From Beroe forskalii (Eukaryota; Ctenophora; Nuda; Beroida; Beroidae), in assembly GCA_011033025.1 (NCBI GenBank), contig WFMF01000081.1:372001-436000 (forward strand): a DNA stretch of 64,000 bases. The letters run 5' to 3'. The notes below the pieces were generated by a model, which was given only the letters and a program-made list of their open reading frames with translations, had not been told where the DNA came from and did not search any database. Both the position numbers and the translations under genes were made by a program. This document shows positions 15,401-53,347 of this stretch, in pieces; position 1 is the first letter of the stretch, and the number at the start of each line of letters is the position of its first letter.

Positions 15401-16067
15401 GGTGCTTGCCCCAGGAGACAGTCATTGCTGGTGCTTGCCCCGGTGCAAGCTGTATCCCAGGAGACAGTCATTGCTGGTTCTTGCCCCGGTGCAAGCTGTA
15501 TCCCAGGAGACAGTCATTGCTGGTGCTTGCCCCGGTGCAAGCTGTACCCCAGGAGACAGTCATTGCTGGTGCTTGCCCCCGGTGCAAGCTGTATCCCAGG
15601 AGACAGTCATTGCTGGTGCTTGCCCCGGTGCAAGCTGTATCCCAGGAGACAGTCATTGCTGGTGCTTGCCCCGGTGCAAGCTGTATCCCAGGAGACAGTC
15701 ATTGCTGGTGCTTGCCCCGGTGCAAGCTGTATCCCAGGAGACAGTCATTGCTGGTGGTTGCCCCGGTGCAAGCTGTATCCCAGGAGACAGTCATTGCTGG
15801 TGCTTGCCCCGGTGCAAGCTGTATCCCAGGAGACAGTCATTGCTGGTGGTTGCCCCGGTGCAAGCTGTATCCCAGGAGACAGTCATTGCTGGTGGTTGCC
15901 CTGGTGCAAGCTGTATCCCAGGAGACAGTCATTGCTGGTGGTTGCCCCGGTGCAAGCTGTATCCCAGGAGACAGTCATTGCTGGTGGTTGCCCCGGTGCA
16001 AGCTGTATCCCAGGAGACAGTCATTGCTGGTGCTTGCCCCGGTGCAAGCTGTATCCCAGGAGACAGG
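15401..16067 (-). repeat. 46-bp minisatellite grown from the end of the GPCR last exon (about 14 copies)
   Basis: Tandem 46-bp unit with an internal hairpin (GCTTGCCCCGGTGCAAGC). Read on the minus strand, the first unit contains the last codons and TGA stop of the receptor gene (LLGYSLHRGKHQQ-stop), so the array is an amplification of a coding 3' end. The unit has no stop in three frames of one strand and is not a multiple of three, which creates long spurious frames of 46-residue period. Confidence 0.9.
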
Positions 16068-16180
16068 GAACGAAGGCTGCGTTGGCAAAGGTAGCTTGGG
16101 GGTAGTGGTTCATGATGTTGTAGGCGAATGTGTTCCGCGAGTGGTACAGGAAGATCCAACTTTCTTGGTGGTCCGGTGAA
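16021..16180 (-). CDS. GPCR exon 8 (TM7 and stop)
   Basis: Acceptor CCCACAACAG. The first base T completes the codon AAT left by exon 7. It reads SPDHQESWIFLYHSRNTFAY, then NIMNHYPQATFANAAF, then VPCLLGYSLHRGKHQQ-stop. The stop lies inside the first 46-bp repeat unit. The proline in VPCLL aligns with Pro7.50, but Asn7.49 and Tyr7.53 are replaced by Val and Leu. Confidence 0.8.
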
Positions 16181-19100
16181 CTGTTGTGGGAAAATTTTAG
16201 AGATTTGGTAATTCTTAGGATATTAGAAAAGATGAAATTTGGCGATTTGCTGGGTACGATTTGAAATTTCCAAAATTTCATTTTGAAAAAGAATGTAAAT
16301 AGAATATGGCTGTTGATGGCGCAAAATCGATTTGCGATTACCTACCACCAACCAAGCCAATTTTTGAACTTAACCACAATATAAGCCTGAAAATATCAAA
16401 AACCGCATAGTTCCATGAATACCATACGACATGCATTTGTGAACGAAAATATGGTTTTTGACGCTGTTAGACCCCTATATGTCACCCGTACGGATTTGTC
16501 ACTCGAAGTGTAATCAATATACCTTACAAGACAAAATAACATGGGACAATAATTCCGGGGATCGAAATTTTGGGGGTTCGAAAATATGGGATTTTTTCAA
16601 AAATCCCCAAATTTCGTACCCCAAATTAAATCAGGTGATTTTCGCCTTTTTTCAAATTCGAAAAAAATAAGGTAACTTTTGGGAATAAATCAGAACTTCA
16701 ATATTACTGAGGTGATCGAAGTAGTAGAATTTCCAGTACAAAATCCCTTTTATCGAGTCGATTGCAGGAGGTTTTATTAGGAATTACTGCATTTAAGATA
16801 TTCTTAACTCTTCTGCACTGATATATTTATTGAAATTTGTCTGGGAATTCCATATTTTATGCACTGTTAGTCAAATCATTACCACATGTTACGTGTCCCT
16901 GTTTGTTCGCGCTTGCAAAATAAGGCTCCGCAAAATAAGGCTCCGTAACATGGAGTAATCAAATCACAAACCCGCAATTAACTAATTTGGGGGAAATAAT
17001 TTTGGGGATCGAAATTTTGGGGGAACGAAAATATGGGGATTTTTTTCATAAAATCCCCAAATTTCGTACCTTTTAAATATGTCTCGTAAGGTACCACGTG
17101 TTCTTACTTCATGTATCCTACAGACGACTAATTTGATTGACTAAGACTCAGGTGACAAATCGGTGCGGATTCCAAAACTCACACACCAGTTTGTTATCCT
17201 CGTACCGATATGTCACTAGAAGTTGAAGTGAACCTCATATAATAAAATGGTCGTATGAAAGTATACCAATGACCCCCAACTGACCCCCTGCTGACTCCCT
17301 ACTGACCCCCTCCTGACCCCCTGGTGAACCCCTACTGACCCCCTGGTGAACCCCTACTGACCACTTTCTGATCATTGTTTCAATTCTTTAACATCTAAAA
17401 GCACTTTAAATTTCACTTTGCCTTTTCGCACATTTTCCATAGAGTAAAAGTTGAAACTGCCATTTCTGTATGGTGGCCGAGATGGCTAATGGCATTTTTT
17501 AAGCAATTTTTATTGTAATCAAAGTAAAATCAACCTAAAATCAAAATAAAATAAAAATAAAACCAAAATGAAATGAAAATAGAATGAAAATGAAATAAAA
17601 ATGAAATGAAAATTTAAAAAAATCAAAATCAAAATCAAAATAAAATACAATCAAAGTAAAACCAAAATTAAATCAAAATAAAATCAAAATAAAACCAAAG
17701 TAAAATAGAAATAAAACCATTTTAAAATGAAAATAAAATGAAAACGAAATGAAAACGAAATGAAAATGAAAGTAAAATCAAAATAAAAGTAAAATCAAAA
17801 TAAAACCAGAATAAAACCAAAGTAAAACCAAAGTAAAATAAAACCATTTTAAAATGAAAATAAAATGAAAATAAAATGAAAACGAAATGAAAATGAAAGC
17901 AAAATCAAAATAAAACAAAATAAAAGTAAAACCAAAATTAAATCAAAATAAAATCAAAATAAAACTAAAGTAAAATAAAAAATAAAACCATTTAAAAATT
18001 TTTAGAGTTTAAAAAAAGAAAAAAAAATTTAAGAAAAAAAAAAAAAATGAAAAAAATTTCGAAAAAATTTTGAAAAAAATCGCTCATGGCCGAGGTGGCT
18101 AATCTAGAATCTACAGCGCGCAGTATGAAAATTCGTGCGCAACAAAAAGTTATGTTAAAGGAGTCTGCGCTCACTGACCCATATCTCAAGATCCACAAAT
18201 AGTAGAGACATGATCGAGGTCATGTTTTGTTCATCTAAGACAGGAGTAGGTAATTGGCTGTAAGAGAAGTTCTGATGACGTCATTATGATGTCATTATGA
18301 CGTCATCAACTTAGCGAAATTTTCTTGCTTGTTTAGCGAAAATAGGTCATCTTTGTGCGCATTTTTGACCAAGAAGGAATGGAGATAGCTCAGAAATGTT
18401 GAAAAATCGTTAGTTGGAAATTTAAAGAGCTTTCAGAAAATCGTACGGATCATTGGGCTATCTCGATTTTTCATCGAGATATACGCGATTTTCTAAGGCA
18501 CGGTGAAAAATCGATTTTGAAGTTTTAGAAGAAAATTTAAACGAGTGACATGTCAAAACTTACGACTTATCATGAGCTGAGACCGGCCAAAGTATGTTGG
18601 GCTAAGACGAAATTGTATAGTAGGCTATGTGGGAAATCGATTTGAGCCAATTTTGGTGCTGTGATGACGTCATCAAAATCGCGTAAAAACACTTAAACAA
18701 CGTATTTTGCGATAGATTGTTATTTTGGGTATTTTGCGCTACTTTGAACATCTCTCACTCAGAGAGTTTTCATTGTATTATGTTTTACTTCAATACATTG
18801 CTTGTAGACCTCGAGATTTAGCTATAAAACGAGTTCCGTGGTGAACGGCCGAAAAATGTTGCCATGGGAAGCCTCCAAAGATTGACCGCTAAATTATTGA
18901 GATTACATCTATGATGAAAATTTGTACTGTAGCCAGCTATTCTGTGATACGATGGTGAACTAATGTCTAATAATGGTTTTCATAATTCTCGCAGTGATTT
19001 GGGAGGGAAATTTTGTAGAAATTACGGTATTAAAGGAAACTGGTATTTACACGGGAATTTCGACTTGATTACATTGAAACAAGTTCAAATACGATAAAGG

Positions 19101-22100
19101 TATGTGAAATTGAAGCCAGTTGCTGTTTTTCAGCACGTGAGTTCACGTCAATGAGTTGTAGAAATAAATAATTATGTCAATTTTTATAATTTCAAGTAAG
19201 AATAACGTTGTTTCGGACTGCACGAGGCTTAGTAATGTTCGTCCGAACAGAAAAATCGATGTGACAAAATGGACTGGCCACACCTAATTAAGCATTTAAG
19301 CAGGTTGTTACCACGAAAACCGTCCAAAATGTCGGTTATGGAGGTCCTATATACATATCCCGGATCCGGGGATAATATCCCCGGAACGAAACTTGAAAAA
19401 GAGATAGAAAACGATGAAAGGAAATGGGGTGAAATAAGCGAATTTAAATTTGGTGAAACTCTTTTTGCACCATCTTACTATATATAATGCGTGTTGTTAA
19501 TATTTATATATATATATTTATTTATGGCTGGCGATTCGTTTTCACGTTAGCATCAAAATTATATTTTAATCGTGTTGCAAGATAGTTACAATGAATCAGA
19601 AAAATATAGAAAAATTTTTGAGGTAAACCTGAGGGTCGTGGGGGCCACGCCCTTTTTTTCCGCAAAAATTAAACTTTCGAATTTTTTCAAAATTCATTTG
19701 CCATCGAGTTGCTCATGATGAATAAAAATTTTGAGAATTTTGTCCGAATTTTTGGGTAACTCTGAGGAGCGTGGGAGGCCACGCCCTTTTTTCGCAAAAA
19801 TTAAACTTTCGAATTTTTTCAAAATTCCTTCGCCATCAAGTTGCTCATGATGAATAAAAGTTTTGAGAATTTTGTCCGAATTATTGGGTAACCCTAAGGG
19901 GCGTGGGAGGCCACGCCCTTTTTTCGCAAAAAATAGACCTTCGATTTTTTTCAAAATTCCTTCGCTATGTAGTTGCTTATGATGAGTAAAGGTTTTGAGA
20001 ATATTGTCGGCAATATTGGGTTACCGTTGGGGGCGTGGAAGCTTTTTTTTCGCAGAAATTAAGGTTTCGAATTTCCCCTCCAAACTAGCACGGTCAAATC
20101 ACTGTCAAAGGGACATGTGGCCGTTAGCTCATGCGGCTGCCATCATTCGCCGTCCGTAGGACGGGAACCGACTAGTTGAAGTAAAACATAATACAATGAA
20201 AACTCTCTGAGTAAGAGATGTTCAAAGTAGCGCAAAATAACAATCTATCGCAAAATACGTTGTTTTAGTGTTTTTACGCGATTTTGATGACGTCATCACA
20301 GCACCAAAATTGGCTCAAATCGATTTCCCACATAGCCTACTATACAATTTCGTCTTAGCCCAACATACTTTGGCCGGTCTCAGCTCATGATAAGTCGTAA
20401 GTTTTGATATGTCACTCGTTTAAGTTTTCTTCTAAAACTTCAAAATCGATTTTTCACCGTGCCTTAGAAAATCGCGTATATCTCGATGAAAAATCGAGAT
20501 AGCCCAATGATCCGTATGATTTTCTGAAAGCTCTTAAATTTCCAACTAAAGATTTTTCAACATTTCTGAGCTATCTCCATTCCTTCTTGGTCAAAAATGC
20601 GCACAAAGATGACCTATTTTCGCTAAACAAGCAAGAAAATTTCGCTAAGTTGATGACGTCATAATGACATCATAATGACGTCATCAGAACTTCTTATAGC
20701 CAATTACCTACTCCTGTCTTAGATGAACAAAACATGACCTCGATCATGTCTCTACTATTTGTGATCTTGAGATATGGGTCAGTGAGCGCAGACTCCTTTA
20801 ACATAACTTTTGTTGCGCACGAATTTTCATACTGCGCGCGCTGTAGATTCTAGATTAGCCACCTCGGCCATGAGCGATTTTTTTTCAAAATTTTTTCGAA
20901 ATTTTTTTCATTTTTTTTTTTTTTCTTAAATTTTTTTTTTCTTTTTTTTAAACTGTAAAAATTTTTAAATGGTTTTATTTTTTATTTTACTTTAGTTTTA
21001 TTTTGATTTTATTTTGATTTAATTTTGGTTTTACTTTTATTTTGTTTTATTTTGATTTTGCTTTCATTTTCATTTCGTTTTCATTTTATTTTCATTTTAT
21101 TTTCATTTTAAAATGGTTTTATTTTACTTTTGGTTTTACTTTTGGTTTTATTCTGGTTTTATTTTGATTTTACTTTTATTTTGATTTTACTTTCATTTTC
21201 ATTTCGTTTTTCATTTCGTTTTCATTTTATTTTCATTTTAAAATGGTTTTATTTCTATTTTACTTTGGTTTTATTTTTGATTTTATTTTGATTTAATTTT
21301 GGTTCTACTTTGATTGTATTTTATTTTGATTTTGATTTTTTTTTTAAATTTTCATTTCATTTTTATTTCATTTTCATTCTATTTTCATTTCATTTTGGTT
21401 TTATTTTTATTTTATTTTGATTTTAGGTTGATTTTACTTTGATTACAATAAAAATTGCTTAAAAAATGCCATTAGCCACCTCGGCCACCATACATTTCTG
21501 GGTCATATCCGTTTTGAGCTCATAGCACCCCCTTATGATTATTACAACCGGACGGAAAACAGGTCATTTGTTCTGGCTAGCATCCACGTGTGCTGCAACA
21601 ACTTCATAACTAACATAAATAACATGTCAAGCGTCATTATAAGGCAAAGTGAAATTTAAAGTGCCTTTAGATGTTCAAAATCACTCATGATATTGATAAG
21701 AATTGAAACAATGATCAGAAAGTGGTCAGTAGGGGTTCACCAGGGGGTCAGTAGGGGGTCAGCAGGGGGTCAGTAAGGGTTCACCAGGGGGTCAGCAGGG
21801 GGTCAGTAGGGGGTCATTGGTATACTTTCATATGACCGAAAGTACGGAATAAGGATTAATTAAGTACGGTTTAAAGTACGGATTAAAACCATACAGGTAG
21901 AACGTGGTGTAGGGTGGTTCAAAAATCCTTTTTCTCATCAAATCAATAGAGGAAAATGTGGATAAGTTGCTCCAGGACATCAAGAAACACCACAAAAAAT
22001 TTCAAGTCAAAATTCGATCGGGAAAAGCCGCCTCCTGGCCACGCACTTTTTTCGGGATTTCTTATACAGGTAAAAAACCGAAAAATGGCTTTTTCGGCGT

Positions 22101-25100
22101 TTTACTTCCATTTATTTGTGTTGGAACCATTTTCCTTTAATATAAACCGTAGGAAGGCATTTTGTTTACTTGGGGTTTCAAAAGTGTACGACCACGCCCA
22201 AACCGATTTTCTGACCACGCCCTATTTTAACAAGCGAAATCGCTAAAGTCGTCGTTTTTGGCATTTTACTTTCACTTTTTCATGCTGGAACCATTTTCCT
22301 TTAATATAAACCGTAGGAAGGCATTTCGTTTATTTGGGTTTTCAAAAGTGTACGACCACGCCCAAACCGATTTTCTGACCACGCCCTATTTTAACAGGCA
22401 AAATCGCGAAAATCGGCATTTTTGGCATTTTCATGAAACGGGTCCGCAGTTAATAAGGCTGGGGCCGTATATACCTTATCGGACATAATTATCACGGACA
22501 TTACATTCACGCTGAGCACTTCAGCGTGAATATTGATGTCCGTGAAAATTTTGTCCGTGATACAAATGTCCGTGATATTCAGGTCCGTGAAAATTATGTC
22601 CGGTATTTCCTCCTAAAATTTCTGGGGTTACAGAGACGCAAAATTTCTGACTTCATCTCTTAAAATGCACAAATGATAATATTTCTAAGGAAATTATACT
22701 TCTTTTTCATGCTTAGCACCTGCAATAAGCAAATTTATCATATTGATTAACGAAAAATATTGAAAAAATATTCAATTCAAGTATTCAAATCGTGAAAAAA
22801 TCGAACCGATAATTTTGAAGTTTTCTTGAAATTTGAAATGGCTGGATCGTGCGTGAATATTATAATGTCCGTGAAGTTTTAAGTCCGTGAAACTAAAGTC
22901 CGTGATAATTATGTCCGATAAGGTAGGGAGGTCTGAGTGCAAAATAAGCATCGGCAATCGATTCAACGGCCTCAGAAACCTAAATGTGGACTTGCTATCA
23001 TAAAATGTATGGTATTCATTGAACTATGGCTTTGCAAAAGATCGGCCATCTATCAACTACGTACTTTTTCCTAAAGTCCAAGAAACGCCGAATAGTAGCG
23101 ATCCACACCATTACCCAGGCGAAGTAGGTGATGATGTGGAAGAGGGAGAGAACTAACATGGTGAAGCTAGCCTTGTTCTCTATCACAGTTCCTTGCTTGA
23201 TCCATTCTAACATTCCTGTAGACAGAGGAGGGGGTCAATGACCACTGTGATAAAACACCACCTAACAAGATGAAATGACATGGGACAATGAGTCCGGGGA
23301 TCGAAATTTTAGGGGTTCGAAAATATGGGGATTATTTTTTTCAAAAATCCCCAAACTGCTCATAAAAATGTATTTTTTGAGCATTTCATCACAATCCCTA
23401 TAATACACATTCCCCTGATTTTGGCTGATAGTCTAGCTCTTAAGATGGCGGGACTGCTCCTAAAGTCTGAGGGACTGTCCTTGCCCTCACCGCGGTTGCT
23501 GACAGTACCGCACTTCTGTAAACTCAAGATGCTACCATGCGTTGTATTATTACCTCCGATGTGCATTCCTGTTTTGCAACATTTTAAAACAGCATTATTA
23601 TTACCAAATGAAAAGTAGCCCTAGCATGGACTATAAAAAGATATAGTGCTCATTGGACAGACTAAATATGTTGCCTACAAAATCCCGCTCGGGGAAGCTG
23701 GACCGTCAGCACGGGTAATCATTAATCAGTCTACCAGACAGAATTATGAAGTTTTGACTTGGGGTACCTCCTCATGCGGAACTAAGACCGCATTCAGATT
23801 AAGATACAGAGATACAGTTTGAAAAGGTAATAAAGAATATGCTCCAAGTACCGGGACAGGAGCCGCAGATGTCCCTCAGCTCGATGTTCTCTGTCAAGTC
23901 TGAGATCTGGGTATATCGGTGCTTGGGGCCCCCACCACGCCCATACCACCCACTAGCCTTCGTCATCTGACTCATTTTCCGCATGCGTAGCACCTGTAGT
24001 TAGTGTTGGAACTTGGAGAAGTAAAGATCAACCTTACTACATGGTACACACTACACACCGTCCCTTTTTCTTTTCTCCAAGCACACTACCATGCGCAAAA
24101 TACTATGAAAACGGCCACGGAGGCGGAAGAGAACATCAGTAAAAGTATATTCATTTGGGTACCAATAATTGGGAACAATTGTGGGTATGAATGTGGGTAT
24201 AATTGTGGGTATAAATGTGATGACAATGCAGATAACCTCGAAAAGGACTTTGAAGGACATGACCACGTTGGATGCTATGGGTAGGAGCAGGAAGATGACG
24301 ATGGCGAAGAGGTAGAATACCAGAGGTCCTGCAGAATAGGGCTCGGTGTTGAGGAGCTCATCAACGCTAAAGTCTAAGATGTAGGAGGACGGGTATCGGG
24401 GTTTGAAGGGCCGGTAGGGTTGAGGGCACTGCGACTCTGGGTGGTGGTAGAACTGAAGTGTGCATGGGTTAACACTACAGTACACAAGAAAGTCTAGAAG
24501 ATTACACCACAGCATGTGCTGGAAAACGGAGAACTGAATCAGTTGTATTTCTATCTCCAAACTACAGTACAGAAGTGCTGTACTCTGATAACACCACTTA
24601 ACCGTACAGTGTACTCTGATGACACCACCATGGACGGTGTACAGTCAGTTATTCAAGTTTATATCATAAATTGCATACATTTTGAGTAAACACCATAAAA
24701 CGCATACATTTTAAATATAGTTATACACCATAAAATGCATACACTTCAAGTTTACATCATAAAATGCATAATATATGCATTTTATGATGTATACATTCTA
24801 ACTTACCACAAAAGGACAAGTTGACAGCAGAACAACAAGCAAAGTAAAGAAAAGAATCCAAGCTACGTAGTGCTGCTTCTTCACCATGTAGATGCGATAC
24901 GGCTGGCAAATGAAGATGTACCTGAAGCAAGGTTGAATCTAAAATTTAACTTACATGAAAGATTTCGATCCAATCGTGACTTCGTAAAATACAGTCTCAG
25001 TTCAAAAATAAAAGTGATTTCACGAATTTCGGCTGAACCTACTGAAAAGTGTACAATTGCAATAGTTCAAAAGCTCATAACTTTTGTAAGTATGACACTT

Positions 25101-27025
25101 GACACAGTAATTGACACTTGAGTCTTGACATAGTAAAAACAGAATGATACAGATTTGGTCCGTGAATTATCTAGAAAAGTAGAAATATGATATCACGTGA
25201 TATATATATTGTATCCGAAACATGTATAACCTGTCTAGGCTTAGGAGGAGCATTATCCACACGAGTAGACGGGAGGTCATGTTGAACACAGCTCCGGTAA
25301 TGTTACAAATCACCAGCTCAACCAGCGACATACCCCTGCAAGGTATTCATCTTGCGTTACAACTAGCAGGAACTAGCCGAATCAAGCCGAAAAGGCGGAA
25401 CAACAGGCGAAACCACCCCGAATCAACCCAAAAACCTCCCCGAATCAAGTCGAAACAACCCGAATCAAATCAACCCGAAACAGACGAAACAACTGAATCA
25501 ACCCGGGTAAGGGTTGATTCGCTTCTTTCGGGTTGATTCACTTGTTTCGGATCGCATCGGCTTGATTCGGGGAGGTTTTTGGGTAATATTTCGGGGTGGT
25601 TTTGGTTTGTTCTGCTTGATTCGGCCTGATTCAACCAGTTCCTGTTTGTAGTTTCAACGGCTACAACTTACTGACATGGGAGGTTAATAAGAATATCACA
25701 ACTTCAAAAGTACCTTGTCGTACGATGTATGACACGTCGATGAGAATTAGCGCCGCGCGCGGCGCTGATTCTCGAGAGGGTCTGTCAACGTCAGACAACA
25801 AGTACCTAACTTGCGACTTACGAGTAAAAAGTAAGTTACAAATGGTCAATAACTCAGACAAACATAACTAACGAGTGACAAGTAACTAACGAGTGACACA
25901 AATAACAAGTGACTAACAAGTCACACATAACTAACAAATGACACATAACTAACAAGGGACTAACAACTTAAGAAGTGGTAAGAGACTAACGCATCTGAAC
26001 AGGGCTGTCCTGAGGATGTACTTGTAGTGACGTAGTAAGAAGTTGAGCTGGTATAAGAGGGGGCTTCGTCCGAGGGATCGTCTACATCTTGATCTAGGCG
26101 TTGGGTGTAGAAGACATACAGCATGTACGGCATGGACAACCCCGTGAGGAAACCGCAGACTGTCAGAGACAGATAGATAGGGGTCTGAAACAGACAGAGA
26201 TAGTTAAGGGTCTGAAACAGAGGGAGATAGATAGGGGTCTGAAACAGAGAGATAGATAGGGGTCTGAATCAGAGAGATAGATAGGGGTCTAAAACAGAGA
26301 GAGATAGATTAAGGGGTCTGAAACAGAGAGATATATAGGGGTCTGAAACAGAGAGAGATAGATAGGGGTCTGAAACAGAGATAGATAGGGGTCTGAAACA
26401 GAGAGAGATAGATAGGGGTCTGAAACAGAGAGAGATAAATAGGGGTCTGAAACAGACAGAGGTAGATAGGGGTCTGAAACAGAGATAGATAGGGGTCTGA
26501 AACAGAGAGAGATAGATAGGGGTCTGAAACAGAGATAGATAGGGGTCTGAAACAGAGGGAGAGATAGGGGTCTGAAACAGAGAGAGATAGATAGGGGTCT
26601 GAAACAGAGAGATAGATAGGGGTCTGAAAAAGATACTGTCAGCAAAATCTCAGGCAAAAAATCAGGTAAGAATATAAATTGCAAGGTGGAACAGGGTTGT
26701 ATGATTAATCTGAAAATCCAAATCTTTTCTGTTAGAGCACATGAAAAAATATAATTTTCAGGAAAACATAATTGATATGAGGGGCTATGAGGAATATGAG
26801 GGCAATATGAGGGGCTATTGCCGGAATGAAACGTTTCATGTCAATCAATAAACAAACCTGAATTGCCTTAGAAGCTCTTACAATTCTGACCAATCTGAAG
26901 GAAACGTAGGCGTTCCCAAATATTGAGATGACGCAGAAAAGAGCGCCGAGCAGAAAAAAGAACCATTCCGCGAGAACAGAAGCATTGTCAATTTTGTTGA
27001 ACTGTAACTCATAAACAACCGTCAT
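16021..27025 (-). CDS. Class A (rhodopsin-like) GPCR gene, eight exons, complete
   Basis: Predicted seven-pass plasma-membrane receptor of 438 residues; ligand unknown. Exons: 26858-27025, 25991-26184, 25231-25335, 24807-24921, 24237-24518, 23852-23993, 23065-23215 and 16021-16180. Every junction has GT and AG, all phases agree and the total is 1317 nt. Visible class A landmarks: glycosylation site N14 (NAS), TM1 with GN (N38), TM2 beginning TPIYLSL, Cys131 at position 3.25, D-R-Y at 155-157 split by an intron, Trp177 in TM4, Pro274 in TM5. Oddities: a Ser/Thr-rich, acidic first extracellular loop (about 87-120), no CWxP in TM6, and TM7 reads NAAFVPCLL where NPxxY is expected. The tail after TM7 is only about ten residues. 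The intron between exons 7 and 8 is 6.9 kb and full of mobile elements. Confidence 0.85.
16522..17091. mobile_element. Mariner-like MITE, copy B, with proven TA insertion
   Basis: Same family as 12750-13222: CCTTACAAGAC and GTCTCGTAAGG ends flanked by TA. The right arm of the inverted duplication (around 39420-39435) has the unoccupied site with one TA, so the insertion post-dates the duplication. It is longer than copy A mainly because of a nested 80-bp insertion. Confidence 0.88.
16879..16958. mobile_element. 80-bp MITE nested in mariner-like MITE copy B
   Basis: Ends TTACCACATGTTACG and CGTAACATGGAGTAA are near-perfect inverted repeats. It is flanked by the 8-bp direct repeat TCAAATCA (16871-16878 and 16959-16966). 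Copy A of the host element has the uninterrupted site (TCAAATCACAAACCC). Two GCAAAATAAGGCTCCG units sit inside. Confidence 0.82.
18801..19472. other. Central spacer of the foldback element
   Basis: Unique sequence between the two arms. A 72-codon frame at 19269-19487 runs into the Helitron start and shows no recognisable domain. Nothing else is supported. Confidence 0.45.
19473..20175 (+). mobile_element. Helitron-like element, copy 2, complete
   Basis: Starts TCTTACTATATATAATGCG directly after an A, and ends with the CCGTCC-GTA-GGACGG hairpin (20150-20164), 11 bases and CTAG directly before a T. These are the A|TC...CTRR|T rules of Helitrons. Both ends agree base for base with copy 3 and the flanks then diverge. 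It holds three internal ~125-bp units with GGCCACGCCC boxes. It has no Rep/helicase gene. Confidence 0.88.
22096..22425 (+). repeat. Two tandem ~160-bp units
   Basis: Two copies of a unit containing GGAACCATTTTCCTTTAATA, GTACGACCACGCCCAAACCG and GACCACGCCCTATTTTAAC. The stretch is replaced by different sequence in the other duplication arm (about 38460-38560). Confidence 0.75.
22474..22923. mobile_element. TA-flanked TIR element studded with GTCCGTGA, left-arm copy
   Basis: Ends CCTTATCGGACATAATTATC and its complement, flanked by TA. The word GTCCGTGA (or its complement) occurs about eight times inside, grouped near both ends. An allelic copy sits at 37970-38424 in the other duplication arm. 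No coding capacity. It lies within GPCR intron 7. Confidence 0.82.
23065..23215 (-). CDS. GPCR exon 7 (TM6)
   Basis: Acceptor CCTCTGTCTACAG, two bases completing Gly336, then MLEWIKQGTVIENKAS, FTMLVLSLFHIITYFAW and VMVWIATIRRFLDFRK. The donor GTACGT follows a run of five A, leaving AA for the next codon. Without splicing, translation would stop about 15 residues later at TAG 23016, an alternative short C-terminus. Confidence 0.82.
23852..23993 (-). CDS. GPCR exon 6 (third intracellular loop)
   Basis: Acceptor AACTACAG, phase 0. Reads VLRMRKMSQMTKASGW, then YGRGGGPKHRYTQISDL and TENIELRDICGSCP; the donor GTACTT leaves one G. Basic and Gly-rich, as expected of a G-protein-contact loop. Confidence 0.78.
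24237..24518 (-). CDS. GPCR exon 5 (second extracellular loop and TM5)
   Basis: 94 codons in phase 0. A cysteine-rich loop (HMLWCNLL, YCSVNPC, SQCPQPYRPF) leads to TM5 (GPLVFYLFAIVIFLLLPIAS) with the TM5 proline. Donor GTTATC. An alternative acceptor 36 bases upstream (GTTTGGAG) would add 12 residues in frame, so the exon start is the least certain of the eight. Confidence 0.75.
24661..24806. repeat. CATAAAATGCATACA repeats in GPCR intron 4
   Basis: Five or so copies of CATAAAATGCATACA, the last pair inverted (TATGCATTTTATGATG), lie directly against the donor of exon 4. Confidence 0.6.
24807..24921 (-). CDS. GPCR exon 4 (end of DRY, TM4)
   Basis: Acceptor CTTGCTTCAG. The first G completes the Arg of D-R-Y, then YIFICQPYRIYMVKKQHY and VAWILFFTLLVVLLSTCPFV with the TM4 Trp. 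Strong donor GTAAGT, phase 0. Confidence 0.85.
25231..25335 (-). CDS. GPCR exon 3 (TM3)
   Basis: Acceptor ATACCTTGCAG. Reads GMSLVELVICNITGAVFN then MTSRLLVWIMLLLSLD. The cysteine in VIC is exactly 25 positions before the DRY Arg, the conserved 3.25 site. Donor GTTATA, phase 2. Confidence 0.85.
25355..25650. repeat. ~295-bp imperfect palindrome in GPCR intron 2
   Basis: Two arms rich in CGAATCAA / TTGATTCG words face each other around 25502. The outer ends read CAGGAACT and AGTTCCTG. It could be a foldback MITE; no clear target duplication is seen. Confidence 0.65.
25742..25775. repeat. GC-rich 32-bp palindrome in GPCR intron 2
   Basis: GAGAATTAGCGCCGCG followed by its complement with one mismatch. 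The right half plus the following CTCGAG...GTCTGTCAACGTCAGACA is shared with 14325-14365, so it is part of a dispersed repeat. Confidence 0.65.
25862..25975. repeat. ACTAACAAGTGACACATA short tandem repeats
   Basis: About six irregular 17-19-bp units immediately downstream (minus strand) of the exon 2 donor. Confidence 0.6.
25991..26184 (-). CDS. GPCR exon 2 (TM2, first extracellular loop)
   Basis: Acceptor CTGTTTCAG, then TPIYLSLTVCGFLTGLSM, PYMLYVFYTQRLDQDVDD and a Ser/Thr-rich stretch ending GQPCSDA. Donor GTTAGT, phase 2. The acceptor and first codons are the template of the adjacent minisatellite. Confidence 0.8.
26185..26640 (-). repeat. Minisatellite made of copies of the exon 2 acceptor (about 17 units)
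   Basis: Units of about 22-30 bp read, on the minus strand, CTCTGTTTCAGACCCCTATC plus a few bases. This is the same sequence as the true intron 1/exon 2 junction, so each unit carries a potential CAG splice acceptor followed by codons TPIYL. The array starts exactly at the junction and extends into intron 1. Confidence 0.9.
26858..27025 (-). CDS. GPCR exon 1 (start codon, TM1)
   Basis: ATG at 27025 in a fair context (G at -3). Reads MTVVYELQFNKIDNASVL, AEWFFFLLGALFCVISIFGN and AYVSFRLVRIVRASKAIQ. Short extracellular N-terminus without a signal peptide, normal for class A. Donor GTTTGT, phase 0. An AG at 27045 (CTGACCAG) suggests a preceding 5'-UTR exon. An earlier in-frame GTAAGA could be an alternative donor. 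Confidence 0.78.
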
Positions 27026-27045
27026 TTCGTACAAATGCCCTGGTC

Positions 27046-39765: not shown

Positions 39766-39925
39766 TTCACCGGACCACCAAGAAAGTTGGATCTTCCTGT
39801 ACCACTCGCGGAACACATTCGCCTACAACATCATGAACCACTACCCCCAAGCTACCTTTGCCAACGCAGCCTTCGTTCCCTGTCTCCTGGGATACAGCTT
39901 GCACCGGGGCAAGCACCAGCAATGA
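39766..39925 (+). pseudogene. Duplicated GPCR exon 8
   Basis: Same length and reading as 16021-16180, with intact acceptor CCCACAACAG and TGA. By itself it is intact, but it belongs to the broken right-arm copy. The stop lies in the first unit of the expanded 46-bp array. Confidence 0.8.
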
Positions 39926-41610
39926 CTGTCTCCTGGGATACAGCTTGCACCGGGGCAAGCACCAGCAATGACTGTCTCCTGGGATACAGCTTGCACTGGG
40001 GCAAGCACCAGCAATGACTTGTCTCCTGGGATACAGCTTGCACCGGGGCAAGCACCAGCAATGACTGTCTCCTGGGATACAGCTTGCACCGGGGGCAAGC
40101 ACCAGCAATGATTGTCTCCTGGGATACAGCTTGCACCGGGGCAAGCACCAGCAATGACTGTCTCCTGGGATACAGCTTGCACCGGGGCAAGCACCAGCAA
40201 TGATTGTCTCCTGGGATACAGCTTGCACCGGGGCAAGCACCAGCAATGACTGTCTCCTGGGATACAGCTTGCACCGGGGCAAGCACCAGCAATGACTGTC
40301 TCCTGGGATACAGCTTGCACCGGGGCAAGCACCAGCAATGACTGTCTCCTGGGATACAGCTTGCACCGGGGCAAGCACCAGCAATGACTGTCTCCTGGGA
40401 TACAGCTTGCACCGGGGCAAGCACCAGCAATGACTGTCTCCTGGGATACAGCTTGCACCGGGGCAAGCACCAGCAATGACTGTCTCCTGGGATACAGCTT
40501 GCACCGGGGCAAGCACCAGCAATGACTGTCTCCTGGGATACAGCTTGCACCGGGGCAAGCACCAGCAATGACTGTCTCCTGGGATACAGCTTGCACCGCG
40601 GCAAGCACCAGCAATGACTGTCTCCTGGGATACAGCTTGCACCGGGGCAAGCACTACTCACCAGCAATGACTGTCTCCTGGGATACAGCTTGCACCGGGG
40701 CAACCACCAGCAATGACTGTCTCCTGGGATACAGCTTGCACCGGGGCAACCACCAGCAATGACTGTCTCCTGGGATACAGCTTGCACCGGGCAAGCACCA
40801 GCAATGATTGTCTCCTGGGATACAGCTTGCACCGGGGCAAGCACCAGCAATGATTGTCTCCTGGGATACAGCTTGCACCGGGGGCAAGCACCAGCAATGA
40901 CTGTCTCCTGGGATACAGCTTGCACCGGGGCAAGCACCAGCAATGACTGTCTCCTGGGATACAGCTTGCACCGGGGCAAGCACCAGCAATGATTGTCTCC
41001 TGGGATACAGCTTGCACCGGGGCAAGCACCAGCAATGATTGTCTCCTGGGATACAGCTTGCACCGGGGCAAGCACCAGCAATGACTGTCTCCTGGGATAC
41101 AGCTTGCACCGGGGCAAGCACCAGCAATGACTGTCTCCTGGGATACAGCTTGCACCGGGGCAAGCACCAGCAATGACTGTCTCCTGGGATACAGCTTGCA
41201 CCGGGGCAAGCACCAGCAATGACTGTCTCCTGGGATACAGCTTGCACCGGGGCAAGCACCAGCAATGACTGTCTCCTGGGATACAGCTTGCACCGGGGCA
41301 AGCACCAGCAATGACTGTCTCCTGGGATACAGCTTGCACCGGGGCAAGCACCAGCAATGACTGTCTCCTGGGATACAGCTTGCACCGGGGCAAGCACCAG
41401 CAATGACTGTCTCCTGGGATACAGCTTGCACCGGGGCACCAGCAAAGACTTGTCTCCCTGGGATACAGCTTGCACCGGGGCAAGCACCAGCAATGACTGT
41501 CTCCCTGGTTGGCTTGCACCGGGGCAAGCACCAGCAATGACTGTCTCCTGGGATACAGCTTGCACCGGGGCAAGCACCAGCAATGACTGTCTCCTGGGGC
41601 AAGCACCAGT
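39885..41610 (+). repeat. 46-bp minisatellite, right arm (about 37 copies)
   Basis: Same unit as 15401-16067 in opposite orientation. It is more than twice as long, with its own variants (ATTGTCTCC, truncated units near 40660 and 41430-41520). All three frames of the minus strand stay open, the longest for 605 codons, with a 46-residue period that is simply three units of 46 bp. I do not regard these as genes. Confidence 0.9.
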
Positions 41611-45070: not shown

Positions 45071-45228
45071 ATAGGGGCATGTTAAGAGTTGACACTTAAA
45101 CACCATTGGTGCCATTGACACCAATGGTAGCAATGGTGCCATTTTAATGGTACCATTGGCACCATTAGTAAATAGAACATTTGGCACCATTGGAATTATT
45201 GGTACCAATGGTGCCATTGGCGCCTCTG

Positions 45229-45292
45229 TTCCTAAGCCCGCATAGGTGTGTGTACGCCGCGCGACGATAACAGGGATATACGCGTTTAGCAA
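45229..45292. mobile_element. 64-bp insertion flanked by a 9-bp direct repeat
   Basis: Unique sequence between two copies of GCGCCTCTG (45220-45228 and 45293-45301), absent at the mirror position of the satellite palindrome (near 46165). Ends TTCCTAA and TTAGCAA are weakly inverted. Confidence 0.5.
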
Positions 45293-45664
45293 GCGCCTCT
45301 GGCACCATTTAAATTGCATAAATGGTGCCATTGGCTCTATTGCTACCATTGGTGCCACTGGCACCATTTAAATGGCACCAATGGTGCCATTGGCGCCAAT
45401 GGTAAAATAATTGCGATGAGAATAGCAATGATTCCAATGGCACCATTGGTGCCATTTGGATGGTGCCATTGGTGCCATTTAGATGGCACCATTAGTGGGA
45501 CATTGACCATTGACAATTTGAATTATTGGTGTCAATGGCACCAATGGTGCCATTTGCGATAATGGTGCCAATGGTGTCATTGGCACCAATGGAACATTTG
45601 AAAACATTGGAAGTATTGGTTGCAATGGGGAAAAGGCCTTATCAATATCACTGTTGTACTTTTT

Positions 45665-45857
45665 GGGTCGGTCTCCCTTGTGGACAGGAGGCGGGAGCTT
45701 TCATTATCCTTATCCTAACCCTAACAAATCCTGGCCCTAATCCTGACCCTAACTCTAGCCCTTAAAGCGCTAGGTGCGCTTAAATGTATTTTTCTGAGTG
45801 ACGTCATTATCATAGATAATGAAAGCTCCGCCTCCCGTTCACATGGGAGACCGGCCC
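45665..45857. mobile_element. CCCTAA-containing MITE at the centre of the satellite palindrome
   Basis: Inverted ends GGGTCGGTCTCCC / GGGAGACCGGCCC extend with mismatches over about 45 bp (GAGCTTTCATTATC both sides). T/A runs flank both ends. The interior has CCTAACCCTAACAAATCCTG and GCGCTAGGTGCGCTTAAA. Confidence 0.75.
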
Positions 45858-46629
45858 AAAAAACACATGATAAGGCCATTTGCCATTGCAACCAATACGC
45901 AATACTTCCAATGTTGTCAAATGTTCCGTTGGTGCCAATGGCACCATTATCGCAAATGGCACCATTGTTACCATTGACGCCAATAATTCAAATTGTCAAT
46001 GGTCGATGCCCCACTAATGGTGCCATCTAAATGGCACCATTGGTGCCATTGGAATGGCACCATTGGAATCATTGCTATCGTCATCGCAATTATTTTACCA
46101 TTGGCGCCATTGGTGCCATTTAAATGGTGCCAGTGGCACCAATGGTAGCAATAGAGCCAATGGCGCCATTTATGCAATTTAAATGGTGCCAGTGGCGTCA
46201 ATGGCACCAATAATTCCAATGGTGCCAAATGTTCCATTGGTGCCAATGGTACCATTAAAATGGCACCATTGCTACCATTGGTGTCAATGGCACCATTGGT
46301 GCCATTTTAATGGTACCATTGGCACCAATGGCATTATTGTCGCCAATGGCACCATTGGTGCTTCTACCCTGTAATGGTGATCTCGACTTTAGTATCGCTT
46401 CTTAATGGCGCCATTGGCACCATTTAAATGGTACCATTGGCACCATTTAAATGGTACCATTGGCATCCAATGGCGATCGCCAATGGGCAATGGTGATCGC
46501 CAATGGGACCAATCGAGATAGGGTGCACCATTGGTGCCATTTCAGCAATCACCATTGGTACCAATGGAGATCCATTGGTACCATTTAGTGGCACCATTGG
46601 CACCAATGGCCCCATTGGTGATATGTGCT

Positions 46630-47540: not shown

Positions 47541-47550
47541 AATAACAATT

Positions 47551-47624: not shown

Positions 47625-47654
47625 CTGGATAAGAGGAATTACAAACCTGTCACT

Positions 47655-47900: not shown

Positions 47901-50900
47901 CTGGTGCAAGTTACCCAGCAGAAAGTGGTAAATTTTAGTTCACTTTTTTAAATGTGGCAGGGCAGGGGTAGATTATTGGTGGACACTAGATATCCCCCTA
48001 ACTGCTTTTTACTCACCAGCAACACTGAAGAGCGTGAGGTGCCCATGTGGCAGGGCAGGCGGTGGTAGGGCGCTGAGCTGGCCAGGTAGGCGGAGGAGAG
48101 CACTTTCCTCCTCTTGTCCCTGCTCTCAGGGCCCGAGTAGAAGGTGAAACTGTCGTCATGCACCTTCTTGAACTTGTCCACAGGTTCTATGAAGGGCTGC
48201 TCTCCAGAGAGGAGTAGAATCTGAGAAGAGGTCTTCATGTCCAGAGACTTGGGGCGGTTGAGGAGTGGGAGCAGGGTGAGGTGGGGTGCGCTCACCACAC
48301 TCACTAGACTCAAGGAAGCCACGCCAAAGGCGTGCACTTTGTGAGAAAGCAGGCAGTCTGGACAGCGGTCCTGCAGCTGGGCGTTCCACGACACCGCGCA
48401 CTTAAACTTGTCCGTCCAGACTGAAACAGGGATCAGATAAAGCAGTTATTACACGACACAGGGGAAACAGCGCTCTAAAACTTGTCCGTCCAGACTGAAA
48501 CAGGGATCACACACGAAAACATAAATACAAGTCAGGGCGAATGCATTCTGTTCACCAGGAGGTACTCACAGCTGTCCTCCGCCTCGGTGAGGGTTCCCAT
48601 CTTGGTGATGACCAAGGACCACATGGCCCGGTAACTCTCCACCACCGACACGCAGAACGTCCACACCTTAGAGAGCACCACGGAGGAGGAGCACGGCCTG
48701 GGGGAACAGAATTAGAGTGGGAGCAGAGTTAGAGTGGGAGCAGAGTTAGAGAAGGAGCAGAGTTAGAGTGGGGGCAGAGTTAGAGTCGGAGTAGAGTTAG
48801 AGGAGGAGCAGAGTTAGAGGGGCAGAGTTGGGGGCAGAGTTAGGGGGCAGAGTTGGGAGCAGAGTTAGAGTGGGAGCAGAGTTAGAGGGGGATCAGAGTT
48901 AGAGTGGGAGCAGAGTTAGAGTGGGAGCAGAGTTAGAGTGGGAACAGAGTTAGAGGGGAGCAGAGTTAGAGTGGGAGCAGAGTTAGAGGGGGCAGAGTTA
49001 GAGTGGGAACAGAGTTAGAGTGGGAGCAGAGTTAGAGGGGGAGCAGAGTTAGAGTGGGAGCAGAGTTAGAGTGGGAGCAGAGTTAGAGTGGGAGCAGAGT
49101 TAGAGGGGAGCAGAGTTAGAGTGGGAGCAGAGTTAGAGTGGGAGCAGAGTTAGAGTGGGAGCAGAGTTAGAGTGGGAACAGAGTTAGAGTGGGAGCAGAG
49201 TGGGAGCAGAGTTAGAGTGGGAGCAGAGTTAGAGTGGGAGCAGAGTTAGAGTGGGAGCAGAGTTAGAGTGGGAGCAGAGTTAGAGTGGGAGCAGAGTTAG
49301 AGTGGGAGCAGAGTTAGAGGGGAGCAGAGTTAGAGTGGGAGCAAAGTTAGAGTGGGAGCAGAGTTTGAGTGGGAGCAGAGTTTGAGTGGGAGCAGAGTTA
49401 GAGGGGAGCAGAGTTAGGGGGGGGAGAGTTAGAGTGGGGGCAGAGTTAAGAGTGGGAGCAGAGTTAGAGTGGGAGCAGAGTTAGAGGGGAGCAGAGTTAG
49501 AGTGGGGGCAGAGTTAGAGTGGGAGCAGAGTTGGGAGTGGGGAACAGAGTTAGAGTGGGAGCAGAGTTAGGGGGGAGTGGGGTTAGGGGGCAGAGTTAGA
49601 GTGGGAACAGAGTTAGAGTGGGAGCAGAGTTAGAGTGGGAGCAGAGTTAGAGTGGGAGCAGAGTTAGAGGGGGGCAGAGTTAGAGTGGGAGCAGAGTTAG
49701 AGTGGGAGCAGAGTTAGAGTGGGAGCAGAGTTAGAGTGGGAGCAGAGTTAGAGTGGGAGCAGAGTTAGAGGGGGAGCAGAGTTAGAGGGAGCAGAGTTAG
49801 AGTGGGAGCAGAGTTAGAGGGGAGCAGAGTTGGGGGAGCAGGGTTAGAAAAAGCAAAAAGTTAAATCCTCAGGGAGGGGAGCAGAGTTAGAGTGGGAGCG
49901 TCAGAAAAATCGATAAATCGTTAGGCCTTGAGAAATAAGCCTAGCATACTCAGGACTTACCTAGACGGTTCGTCCACCGCGAAGACAGCACTGTCTAGGA
50001 GGTGCCCTGTGGAGTCAGTCAGGGCGGCTATAACCCAGTTGTTGTCGTGAGAGAAGGAGTAGGCGCAGGAGAGGGTGTCCAGCTTGGAGTTTAGTGTCTC
50101 CAGGAGCGGCTTGCTCTTCAGGACGCACATCGGACTGTAGGTGTAGTAATCAGGCGGGGCGGGAGCCGAGGGGGTCGCCTGCTCCTGCACAGAATTTGAG
50201 AATTAGAGAAACTAATTATCCCACTTTTCTCCAGGAAAAGCTCACAGGCAACAAAGAAACTAAAGGTGTCAGTAGCTATTCATCTCAGATGCATCCAAAT
50301 AGCTATGACGACTCCGCCAGGTCAAAATGATGCATCTGAATTTTGACAAATCCAATTCATGGACAAAGAGAGCCATGCAAGAGAGCCTTCAACAGTATTT
50401 TCTATTCTCAATGAAGGTTCATCCTTAAATCTCAGATTCCATGCCGCCTTCAATCATATATCTCTTCCTCACTGCTACGAGTGCTCATCAGTAAAAACGA
50501 AGGTAGTAAAAGGGTTGTAAATAGGGTTGTTAAACCCTGAAATAACGAGAAAAGTAAAACTACTGAGACTTACCCCTCCCTCCAGGTTTGCGTCTGTAGA
50601 GACAGGTCCGAAGCCCGTGAGGCAAGTAGAGAGGGGCTTGCTCTGCTTGTGCCGCAGCATCTGGTTGTAGACGGAGAAACAGAGCGACTTCAGGGCAGAG
50701 GACTGGAAGGAGCAGTTCCTGTGGTTGTCCGACATGAACTCTGCGGGGATGCTCTGAAACAGGGACCCGTTAGGAATACCATGACAATCAAATCGCGAAC
50801 TAAGTAGGTTTCTTCTTTAGAGAGGATTACACAAGGCTTGCAGGATCGGTATCCTGTAGAAAACGAGTCTCACCTGCATTATGAAGTGGATGTTCTTTAT

Positions 50901-53347
50901 CTTGCTGAGTTCCTCCTGCATTGAGTTGAAGCACCGCGCCACCAGCTGGGTTTTCCGCTGCAAGTCCCGCGTCTTGAAGGGGTCGATGAAGTAGATGACA
51001 ATGTTCCTGTGCTCTGAATTACCTGGAACATGGGGATCGCTTAGTACCCTTAGAAAGTTAACTACACAGCCCTCAGTTACTGGAGTAAAGAACCTTTTAC
51101 CTCTCTGGCATGTTTGCCACTTAAAATAACTTCAAGTTCATATCTACTAAAATAACTTCAAGTTCATATCTATCAGGAATCTACAAGAATAGGAAATTGT
51201 AACACTGACCCCACACTTACCTTGCCCCTCCAGGAATTTGGTGAGGTATCTGGCCAGGAGGTGGTGACAGGTCTTGGCGTACACCTGAGGAATTTAAATG
51301 TGAAAATGCGTCATTATGAAAATGCAGTTTCTTAAGTTTTTAGAATCATATTTTGCTAATAACTATCCACGAGAAGCTAACGTGCACCTAAACGTGCGTC
51401 GTGCACCCTAGCCACTCGGTTATGATATTCTAAATTTCTCCATTAGTTTCACAAGTTAAATTCTGAACTTCTCGTTTAATTACACAAGTTAAATCCTCAA
51501 ACCTGCCAGGTGGTGCTCTCAGGGTCGTCCTTCTCCGTGAACCAGGGGTCGATGGGTTCCAGCTCCACCTTCTCCCACGACTTCTTACTGACCCGCATCA
51601 CCCCCTCCCGTATCTTAGTAGCCAGCTGCCGGTGGCGCCCCAGGTGGCAAAGCTGAAAGGGGTCAGAGTTAAGGGTGTTCAACTCTTACGAAAATTGGGA
51701 GCACAATTTCAATCTTCAAATGGTTCTCAATTACATCTGAAAGCCAACTAAAATTTGCGATGATAAGCGTCACATAATATATTACTAGTTCTGTTGGCTG
51801 AATCTTTAATGACAAATATATTGATAAATGGCTTAGTTCAGAATAAGCAACATTTTGCCCCAAAATAATTTGACCATTCAATAATTACTGCCGACCATAA
51901 TCATGATAATTTCATTCGTCATACAGACGCATCATCATTTCTTCCACTCAGGAAGTTATGGGTCACGTACCGCGGCATGTACCAAAGAATCGCACTCTTT
52001 TCAGTATGTAGCTTGATCCGGAATGAAACGCAGTGATGATGTAAATAAATTTGCTCCTGTTATTTCTACAAAACAAAGCTAAGAACGTTTGTGCGCGCTG
52101 ATATACTAAATGCTGAAATTTACGTTTTTCGAAACAAGAAGGCCTCTACAATGCTCAAAATATTTGCTTTAATTGAGTCGCGCAGTTTCACAGCCAAAAT
52201 TTGACTTCAATCTCTTCTGGCACGGGACATAGCTGCAACCACTAAGTTAATTTAATCAGCTAGTCAATGGAACGCATCTGCTGGTCACGAACCAGCTAGT
52301 CAATGTAACTCATCTGCTGGTCACGAACCAGGTAGTCAATGGAACGCATCTTCTAGTCACGAACCAGCTAGTCAATGGAACGCATCTTCTAGTCACGAAC
52401 CAGCTAGTCAATGGAATGCATCTGCTGGTCACGAACCAGCTAGTCAATGGAATGCATCTGCTAGTCACGAACCAGCTAGTCAATGGAATGCATCTGCTGG
52501 TCACGAACCAGCTAGTCAATGGAACGCATCTGCTGGTAACGAACCAGCTAGTCAATGTAACTCATCTGCTGGTCACGAACCAGCTAGTCGATGGAACGCA
52601 TCTGCTGGTCACGAACCAGCTAGTCACTGGAATGCATCTGCTGGTCACGAACCAGCTAGTCAATGGAACGTATCTGCTGGTCACGAACCAGCTAGTCAAT
52701 GTAACTCATCTGCTGGTCACGAACCAGCTAGTCGATGGAACTCATCTGCTGGTCACGAACCAGCTAGTCAATGGAACGCATCTGCTGGTCACGAACCAGC
52801 TAGTCAATGGAACGTATCTGCTGGTCACGAACCAGCTAGTCAATGGAACGCATCTGCTGGTCAAGAAGGAGGTAGTCAATGGCACGCATGGTTAAATAAA
52901 GACCAATAAGGTTTTGTCTGCCCACCCTATTTCTTCGTTCCGATGGTAGCTAATATAATGTTCCTCTATCATTTCCAGCTAAAAGTAACAACTCCATTTC
53001 GGTCACACCCCGAGTAATCTGTGCCCCCTAAGAAACCTGTGCCCCCACCCCCTCGAGGAACCTGTGCCCCCTTAGTAACCTGTGCCCCTCGAGGAACCTG
53101 TGCCCCCTAACCCCTCTCAGCTCGTAGACTGTGGAGAGGTCGATGAAGAAAGTGTGGATGTTGTTGATGATGTGAGGGTTATCAGGGGTCACCACCAAGT
53201 AGAACACATCCTGTTTCCCAGAGTAGGGCTCCATGCCCTTAGGGATCCACACAGGGAGACTGAGGGGACTCACTGACACCCAGCTCTGATCGTTACCCAG
53301 CAACACGGCTGGCAGGGGCTGCTCCCCACTACCAGTGTTATACTTTT
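47655..53347 (-). CDS. MED13: MED13-like Mediator kinase-module subunit, nine 3' exons (5' part missing)
   Basis: MED13 links the CDK8 kinase module to core Mediator in the nucleus. Exons: 53112-53347, 51503-51652, 51221-51284, 50874-51022, 50574-50753, 49961-50184, 48570-48697, 48017-48420 and 47655-47900. All phases agree, giving 593 codons including stop. Family hallmarks in order: SWVSVSPLSLPVW, EPYSGKQDVFYLVVTPDN, FFIDLSTVYEL, LGRHRQLATKIREGVMRVSK, IVIYFIDPF, ALKSLCFSVYNQ, LTGFGPVS, and HPLILRYIFQLLDALSWL near the end. This is the MID/PIWI-like C-terminal third; the protein family is usually near 2000 residues. The first exon listed starts in phase 1, so more exons must lie upstream, beyond the transposons at 53.4-57.5 kb or outside the window. 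Its introns carry four tandem-repeat blocks. Confidence 0.85.
48017..48420 (-). CDS. MED13: MED13-like exon
   Basis: Acceptor CCCTGTTTCAG, then WTDKFKCAVSWNAQLQDRCP, LSHKVHAFGVASLSLVSVV and TSSQILLLSGEQPFIEP. Donor GTGAGT. Reading through the donor gives QLGGYLVSTNNLPLP before a stop; this resembles the conserved G-Y-x-V-S-T segment of the family, so an alternative or retained splice form is possible. Confidence 0.78.
48405..48512 (-). repeat. Duplicated exon acceptor (about 31 bp, two copies)
   Basis: The acceptor region AAACTTGTCCGTCCAGACTG / AAACAGGGATCA at 48405-48435 is repeated at 48479-48510 in the intron, producing a second CTGTTTCAG acceptor with the first codons of the exon. Confidence 0.8.
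48570..48697 (-). CDS. MED13: MED13-like exon
   Basis: Acceptor CTGTTCCCCCAG. Reads PCSSSVVLSKVWTFCVSV, VESYRAMWSLVITKMGTL and TEAEDS. Donor GTGAGT, phase 1. Matches the segment of the family with the W-x-L-V-I-x-x-x-G core. Confidence 0.8.
48711..49897 (-). repeat. 17-bp AGAGTGGGAGCAGAGTT minisatellite (about 65 units) in a MED13 intron
   Basis: The array abuts the acceptor of the exon at 48697. On the minus strand each unit reads CTCTAACTCTGCTCCCAC, close to the exon's own tract CTCTAATTCTGTTCCCCCAG. It therefore looks like an expansion of the polypyrimidine tract. Variants with 15-19 bp and extra G occur throughout. Confidence 0.9.
49961..50184 (-). CDS. MED13: MED13-like exon
   Basis: Acceptor AAATTCTGTGCAG. 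Reads EQATPSAPAPPDYYTYSP, MCVLKSKPLLETLNSKLD, TLSCAYSFSHDNNWVIAALT and DSTGHLLDSAVFAVDEPS. Donor GTAAGT, phase 2. The W-V-I-A-A-x-T-D core is a PIWI-like strand typical of MED13. Confidence 0.82.
50574..50753 (-). CDS. MED13: MED13-like exon
   Basis: 60 codons, phase 0 at both ends: SIPAEFMSDNHRNCSFQS, SALKSLCFSVYNQMLRH, then LTGFGPVSTDANLEGG. Donor GTAAGT. Confidence 0.84.
50874..51022 (-). CDS. MED13: MED13-like exon
   Basis: Acceptor CATGTTCCAG. Reads NSEHRNIVIYFIDPFKTRD, LQRKTQLVARCFNSMQEE, LSKIKNIHFIMQ. The I-V-I-Y-x-x-D-P-F core is a strong family marker. Donor GTGAGA, phase 0. Confidence 0.85.
51221..51284 (-). CDS. MED13: MED13-like exon (short)
   Basis: Acceptor ATTCCTCAG, then VYAKTCHHLLARYLTKFL EGQ and one base of Gly. 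Strong donor GTAAGTG. Too short to be seen as an open frame, but the phases fit both neighbours. Confidence 0.8.
51503..51652 (-). CDS. MED13: MED13-like exon
   Basis: 50 codons, phase 0: LCHLGRHRQLATKIREGVM, RVSKKSWEKVELEPIDPW, FTEKDDPESTTWQ. The L-G-R-H-R followed by G-V-M-R-V is diagnostic of MED13. Acceptor CCCCTTTCAG, donor GTTTGA. Confidence 0.85.
52258..52900 (+). repeat. 36-bp minisatellite (about 17 copies) in a MED13 intron
   Basis: Unit CTGCTGGTCACGAACCAG plus CTAGTCAATGGAACGCAT, with an internal hairpin (GCTGGT / ACCAGC). The period is a multiple of three, so long frames appear on both strands; none is a gene. Confidence 0.9.
53015..53111 (-). repeat. Short tandem repeat at the donor of the first MED13 exon seen
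   Basis: On the plus strand GAACCTGTGCCCCCTTAG and GAGGAACCTGTGCCCC alternate about five times, ending exactly at the exon's GGGGTTAGG donor. The unit contains CTAAGGGGGC-type sequence resembling that donor. Confidence 0.7.
53112..53347 (-). CDS. MED13: MED13-like exon, most 5' one found
   Basis: Acceptor CCCCTTTCAG after a C/G run, entering in phase 1. Reads KYNTGSGEQPLPAVLLGN, DQSWVSVSPLSLPVWIP, KGMEPYSGKQDVFYLVVTP, DNPHIINNIHTFFIDLSTVY. S-V-S-P-x-x-L-P-x-W followed by E-P-Y-x-G is the clearest MED13 signature in the window. The donor (GTTAGG) is weak and lies inside a repeat. Confidence 0.83.

Follow-up and report, generated by a model that had tools for sequence, protein, structure and literature searches.

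Tandem repeats meet exon edges in two genes, MED13 and a gene for a rhodopsin-like G protein-coupled receptor (GPCR), within a 64,000-nucleotide stretch of contig C925 (WFMF01000081.1) of Beroe forskalii, here called the window. It had been predicted from these letters that exon boundaries act as birthplaces of such repeats. Our analysis suggests, with a probability of roughly 75%, that they are ordinary minisatellites in a repeat-rich, short-intron genome, a minority of which are “mirages” whose units span an exon-intron edge. The repeats are real and of a known kind, but exon edges are not proven to be their birthplace. On the simplest reading, an exon edge is a line at which arrays stop or are tolerated, and no hotspot is needed.

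The genome (216 Mb) is rich in repeats, and tandem repeats make up 25% of the window in 74 merged arrays, so that some contacts between arrays and exon edges are expected by chance. Exon edges in the window were assigned by homology (MED13), splice-site consensus, and reading phase; the MED13 exon ends were also derived from splice signals and an exon-chain program. The GPCR-like gene matches Pfam 7tm_1 at 6e-07 with 29.6 bits, slightly under the cutoff of 30.5, and has rhodopsin matches at an E value of 0.0002. The two genes and the repeats at their edges are listed below (TRF, Tandem Repeats Finder).

48017..53347, minus strand: C-terminal exons of MED13 (PDB 8t1l chain 9, E value 4.5e-45; Pfam MID_MedPIWI and Med13_C).
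53347-53112, 51652-51503, 51284-51221, and 51022-50874, minus strand: MED13 exons, from homology and splice signals.
50753-50574, 50184-49961, 48697-48570, and 48420-48017, minus strand: MED13 exons, continued, from homology and splice signals.
16021..27043, minus strand: multi-exon gene for a rhodopsin-like GPCR (Pfam 7tm_1), several exon ends of which are provisional.
26164..26633, minus strand: array of about 18 units of 23 to 27 bp (TRF) at the GPCR acceptor, 26185/26184.
15410..16066, minus strand: 46-bp array of 14.3 units (TRF and translation).
39880..41598, plus strand: inverted twin of the 46-bp array, with 37.3 units, where the gene end is duplicated (TRF).
48405..48512, minus strand: two copies, offset by 74 bp, of an exon start together with its acceptor, the last one found here for MED13.
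48702..49848, minus strand: 17-bp array of 69 units (TRF), ending 4 bp short of the MED13 acceptor (48697).
53004..53108, minus strand: imperfect repeats (TRF periods 43 and 18), ending 3 bp short of the MED13 donor (53112).
51427..51502, minus strand: 33-bp array of 2.3 units (TRF), in exact contact with the MED13 donor at 51503 and absent from the original prediction.

The original prediction named five repeats starting at a splice site or stop codon (26185-26640, 15401-16067, 48405-48512, 48711-49897, and 53015-53111). All five are real; two extend across a splice site, one extends across a stop codon, and two abut a splice site. Four are TRF arrays, and the fifth (48405-48512) is a two-copy duplication obtained by self-comparison. 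The GPCR acceptor lies where it had been placed, and the typical unit of its array joins the exon start (ACCCCTATCTATC.., coding for TPIYLSL) to the acceptor CTGTTTCAG. This array reaches 21 bp into the exon, and the sequence across the acceptor matches a copy 54 bp away at 23/24 positions. The claim of a duplicated acceptor in MED13 (exon at 48420) likewise stands, the two copies being 24/24 identical across the site, as does that of a repeated stop codon, because unit 1 of the 46-bp array carries the last codons of the GPCR-like gene and its TGA at 16023-16021. The 17-bp array abuts its acceptor, but its unit is devoid of exon sequence, and the end first given for it, 49897, includes a few scattered units past 49848. 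The repeat at donor 53112 abuts the exon but is weak, consisting of a few imperfect units whose best near-copy over the donor is 16/24. Next to this donor, the repeats at 53049-53111 keep an open frame.

The twin of the 46-bp array is the sole other place found for it in the genome (two candidates, both scored). It lies in a duplicated gene end with inverted self-matches of 96 to 98.6% identity and is not independent evidence. The two paralogous places differ in copy number (14.3 versus 37.3 units), in an array that spans a stop codon, not a splice site. The inverted duplication comprises the 3' part of the receptor gene (14899-16523 and 22426-23560 against 39422-42102 and 37338-38469, in stretches of 96 to 98.6% identity) and includes the 46-bp array in unequal copy numbers. 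Another inverted pair (17467-18793 and 20176-21494, 97.3% identical) lies within a 6.9-kb intron of the receptor gene and is accompanied by A/T-rich 11-bp repeats.

An independent sample of 21 loci (184,600 bases; 17 loci of 10 kb and four of 3.0 to 4.6 kb) was assembled from multi-exon places with domain matches to myosin (78 rows), kinesin (120 rows), and TCP1 chaperonin (45 rows). Loci were chosen blind to repeats; kinase rows (135) were left out, and L051 to L054 joined the sample after the first result. Loci L001 to L008, drawn from an arbitrary pattern, and L009 to L033, which overlap 46-bp arrays, stayed outside the tests. The exon-chain program, trained on the matches of the first 17 loci and on MED13, recovered the MED13 splice sites unprompted, although MED13 codons belonged to its training set; the one exception was a donor placed at 53049 inside the repeat, 21 codons further. 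With strict phase rules, 110/110 domain matches were covered, and the five loci displayed gave continuous conserved proteins, save for a single stop in frame where the L051 model breaks. Breaks of phase or gene numbered 17/171 with the first, loose models and 1/171 with the strict ones. The conclusions are the same under both; final numbers come from the strict models, while the tests on the window genes, the position bias, the strand bias, the list of spanned sites, and the end density come from the first. The sample yields 170 introns (median, 273 bp), 340 splice sites, and 90 intronic arrays (TRF score of at least 40 and period of at least 6, with shorter periods and low-complexity windows excluded). 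Repeats make up 12.1% of its intron bases; with introns this short, edge contacts are therefore common by chance.

Units that copy an exon edge also turn up in unrelated genes elsewhere in this genome, and to that extent the original prediction is supported. In a kinesin gene (L041, 7044-7358), the intronic unit reproduces the exon end SKLTRLLQ with its donor, and in a myosin gene (L035, 3074-3361), it reproduces the exon start FNSFEQLC with its acceptor; in both, the conserved protein reads through when the array is treated as intron. Further edge-copying repeats occur in L036, L043, L047, L049, and L050. To count such cases independently of a repeat finder, we scored 24-bp windows having a copy of at least 20/24 within 150 bp. 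Near-copies across the site were found at 4/170 donors and 9/170 acceptors (3/106 and 4/105, respectively, at homology-supported exons). The resulting 13/340 is an upper count, because three near-copies are weak (20/24; L049 557, L049 1649, and L051 666), one of these (L049 1649) is the site of a 21-bp predicted exon inside repeats, and six lie at exons devoid of homology support, leaving 7/211 for supported exons. Thus, at most about 4% of splice sites have a local near-copy, which quantifies mirages over a gene set. As a separate observation, kinesin loci on two contigs carry related 31-bp repeats in their introns, 15 to 22 bp away from a donor (L038 8314-8498, L038 9293-9392, and L048 5690-5836); on the RNA strand these repeats are pyrimidine rich (0.78 to 0.79).

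It had been stated that no named system behaves in this way, but the lancelet “mirages” bear that name. In lancelets, mirages are reported to be minisatellite-like repeats that duplicate an exon-intron edge, at the donor or the acceptor side, vary in length, and leave splicing intact (PMC3087553 and PMC3902484); they occur in the genes for Adh3, globins BflGb6 and BflGb9, troponin C, and PGBD5, with units of about 10 to 160 bp. The repeats described here share with them edge-spanning units, occurrence on acceptor and donor sides, and copied splice signals, along with differences in copy number that were seen here between the paralogous places of the stop-spanning array; the structural mirage features tested here were found. 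A unit that spans the edge and repeats exon sequence is present at the GPCR acceptor, the MED13 acceptor at 48420, the kinesin donor, and the myosin acceptor, whereas 48702-49848, 53004-53108, and 51427-51502 only abut an exon. For lancelets, normal splicing and haplotype length differences are reported, while here lengths were compared by paralogue copy number alone; the MED13 stretch 48021-48700 has a single place in the assembly, and no second allele of it was found. Among the papers listed, the term was found in use for lancelets only, which does not show that mirages are unreported elsewhere. In Caenorhabditis elegans, the CeRep25B minisatellite is described as overrepresented near alternative splicing regions (PMC4039745); that is a named repeat family, whereas the edge units of Beroe copy local exon or intron sequence.

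Units that contain splice sites also bring to mind the model of Rogers, in which introns are gained by tandem duplication of AGGT (PMC2891723). Such a mechanism is on record (PMC2891723 and PMC4974935), and the present duplications resemble it in including a splice-site-like stretch; in L049, repeats at 1507-1621 carry CAGGTAA-like sites up to the exon, matching the model. The arrays might then mark introns newly gained from an AGGT-bearing exon stretch. We consider this highly improbable. The upstream exon in L049 is a 21-bp prediction inside repeats, devoid of homology support, and proves nothing, and in the GPCR, MED13, kinesin L041, and myosin L035 cases the units copy a single intron edge only, so that existing introns are enlarged and a new intron bounded by two copies was not found in any of these four. 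Moreover, in another kinesin gene, L042, an exon also stops at this LLQ position but such an array is lacking; the intron in L041 is therefore probably older than its array. Spare exon edges of this kind provide material from which alternative splice sites and new introns can arise.

Whether array ends are enriched at splice sites depends on the null chosen. In the sample, 21/90 intronic arrays end within 10 bp of a splice site or cross it (introns shorter than 60 bp, 3/170, were excluded from the rotation test). Two nulls bracket the answer. One of them allows shuffled arrays an exon overlap of up to 30 bp, which a unit copied from an edge must have, and it gives 18.3 expected arrays (P = 0.22). 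Where both exons have homology support, 10/36 arrays compare with 8.9 expected (P = 0.38). Stricter arrays behave similarly, with 20/66 versus 16.1 expected at scores of at least 50 (8.6 if arrays are kept inside introns) and 14/37 versus 11.5 at scores of at least 80 (P = 0.15; 6.5 inside introns). Two further measures concur. (i) Ten base pairs into the intron, repeats cover less than the intron mean, both at donors (10/167 versus 16.2) and at acceptors (12/167 versus 16.2). (ii) Near-copies are found at 1/309 positions 30 bp inside exons, 13/340 edges, 22/317 positions at +60 bp, and 21/213 at +100 bp; this profile is a step from exon to intron and has no peak at the edge, where duplications are not more common than inside introns (13/340 versus 22/317 at +60 bp). 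Nor were arrays significantly biased toward the acceptor half of introns (44 acceptor and 35 donor, of 82). With no excess under the overlap null, low coverage, and no near-copy peak, the idea that exon edges are birthplaces of repeats is not supported.

Several observations weigh against this conclusion. When arrays are kept inside introns, only 9.8 of the 90 are expected at splice sites, and P was printed as 0.0000 over 20,000 draws; for arrays between homology-supported exons, 10/36 compares with 4.0 (P = 0.0018). The shuffling test proposed with the original prediction, at 0 to 10 bp, accordingly returns an excess with the inside-intron null that is gone with the 30-bp overlap null. Outward array ends are denser at 0 to 20 bp (2.9 per kb; 19 ends) than at 21 to 130 bp (1.1 per kb; 36 ends); this difference, obtained with the first gene models, is the strongest evidence of an additional effect. 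Inside the window, where arrays were shuffled within their own introns, 3/5 intronic arrays of MED13 lie within 10 bp of a splice site versus 0.53 expected (P = 0.007), while in the GPCR-like gene, where several exon ends are provisional and acceptor 26184 was entered as 26163, the count is 1/19 versus 0.47 (P = 0.39); both tests are post hoc and use the first gene models. Finally, exon edges throughout were computed, not derived from RNA.

The near twofold excess under the inside-intron null (21/90) is what a hotspot would produce, in which a process coupled to splicing or transcription (stalling at pyrimidine tracts, R-loops, or cotranscriptional breaks) makes duplications at exon edges. It finds a second argument in strand composition: large intronic arrays (score of at least 80) are pyrimidine rich on the RNA strand in 23/29 cases (P = 0.0023), a bias that was noticed after looking and was measured on the first gene models, after related units had been collapsed from 33 to 29. 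However, the excess vanishes under the overlap null, the coverage and near-copy data lack an edge signal, and the pyrimidine bias is also seen near donors, far from acceptors. Arrays outside gene spans lean alike (8/12), those of the window genes are unclear (5/8), and neither count is significant. R-loops prefer G-rich RNA. The R-loop variant is therefore not favored by the sample, in which the RNA strand has more C than G in 19 of the 29 arrays and more G than C in 9, although the objection is weak, since G exceeds C in 6/8 arrays of the window genes. Taken together, these data make the hotspot unlikely. A related reading, in which a process tied to transcription or splicing starts or directs arrays at exon edges, could draw on the crowding of ends in the first 10 to 20 bp and on pyrimidine orientation, the latter being a lead only; we regard it as rather doubtful. 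If it were true, splicing would shape where and how minisatellites grow, and both signals could be put to the test in any genome that is rich in repeats and has gene models based on RNA.

The 17-bp MED13 array raises a further possibility, that selection maintains arrays because they provide additional branch points, splice sites, or pyrimidine tracts. Its unit on the RNA strand is ACTCTAACTCTGCTCCC, i.e., CTAAC plus pyrimidines, and no AG occurs within the array bounds; the stretch 48702-49897 (1,196 bp) has CTAAC 62 times and AG once, versus 12 expected from composition. Yet this is a single array, and because its unit has no AG, copying alone passes this lack on. In the GPCR array, by comparison, AG occurs 18 times in 449 bp. 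Selection for splice signals thus appears very unlikely. AG avoidance was not found to be a general rule, since AG stands at 0.88 of expectation over the 29 collapsed intronic arrays.

We return to ordinary minisatellites with a minority of mirages. Short tandem duplications would arise all over transcribed DNA, and selection would clear those within exons, where near-copies are indeed scarce; with arrays excluded from exons, they would stop at exon edges. Duplications that span an edge may survive, and be tolerated there, because one edge and splice site works while the spare exon edges can be spliced out with the intron; the structure is observed, and the splicing out of the spares is our proposal. 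Surviving copies could then expand by slippage or unequal exchange (compare the 14.3 and 37.3 units of the twin arrays). Among the causes offered with the original prediction, selection-free growth inside introns comes nearest to these data. The mirages here appear as the margin of a repeat landscape common to introns and not as a separate system.

The window holds other repeats and one further open frame. The latter (669-1634, 321 codons) has no Pfam match at E values up to 1. Related tandem repeats of 132 to 133 bp at 3336-3869, 19613-20038, and 33615-34137 (about 83 to 93% identity) form a dispersed family. At 35897-36171, the 9-bp repeat ATGTCAGTC occurs 30 times in an open Val-Ser-His frame, and at 45100-46600, palindromic AATGGTACCATT-like repeats are densely packed in both orientations.

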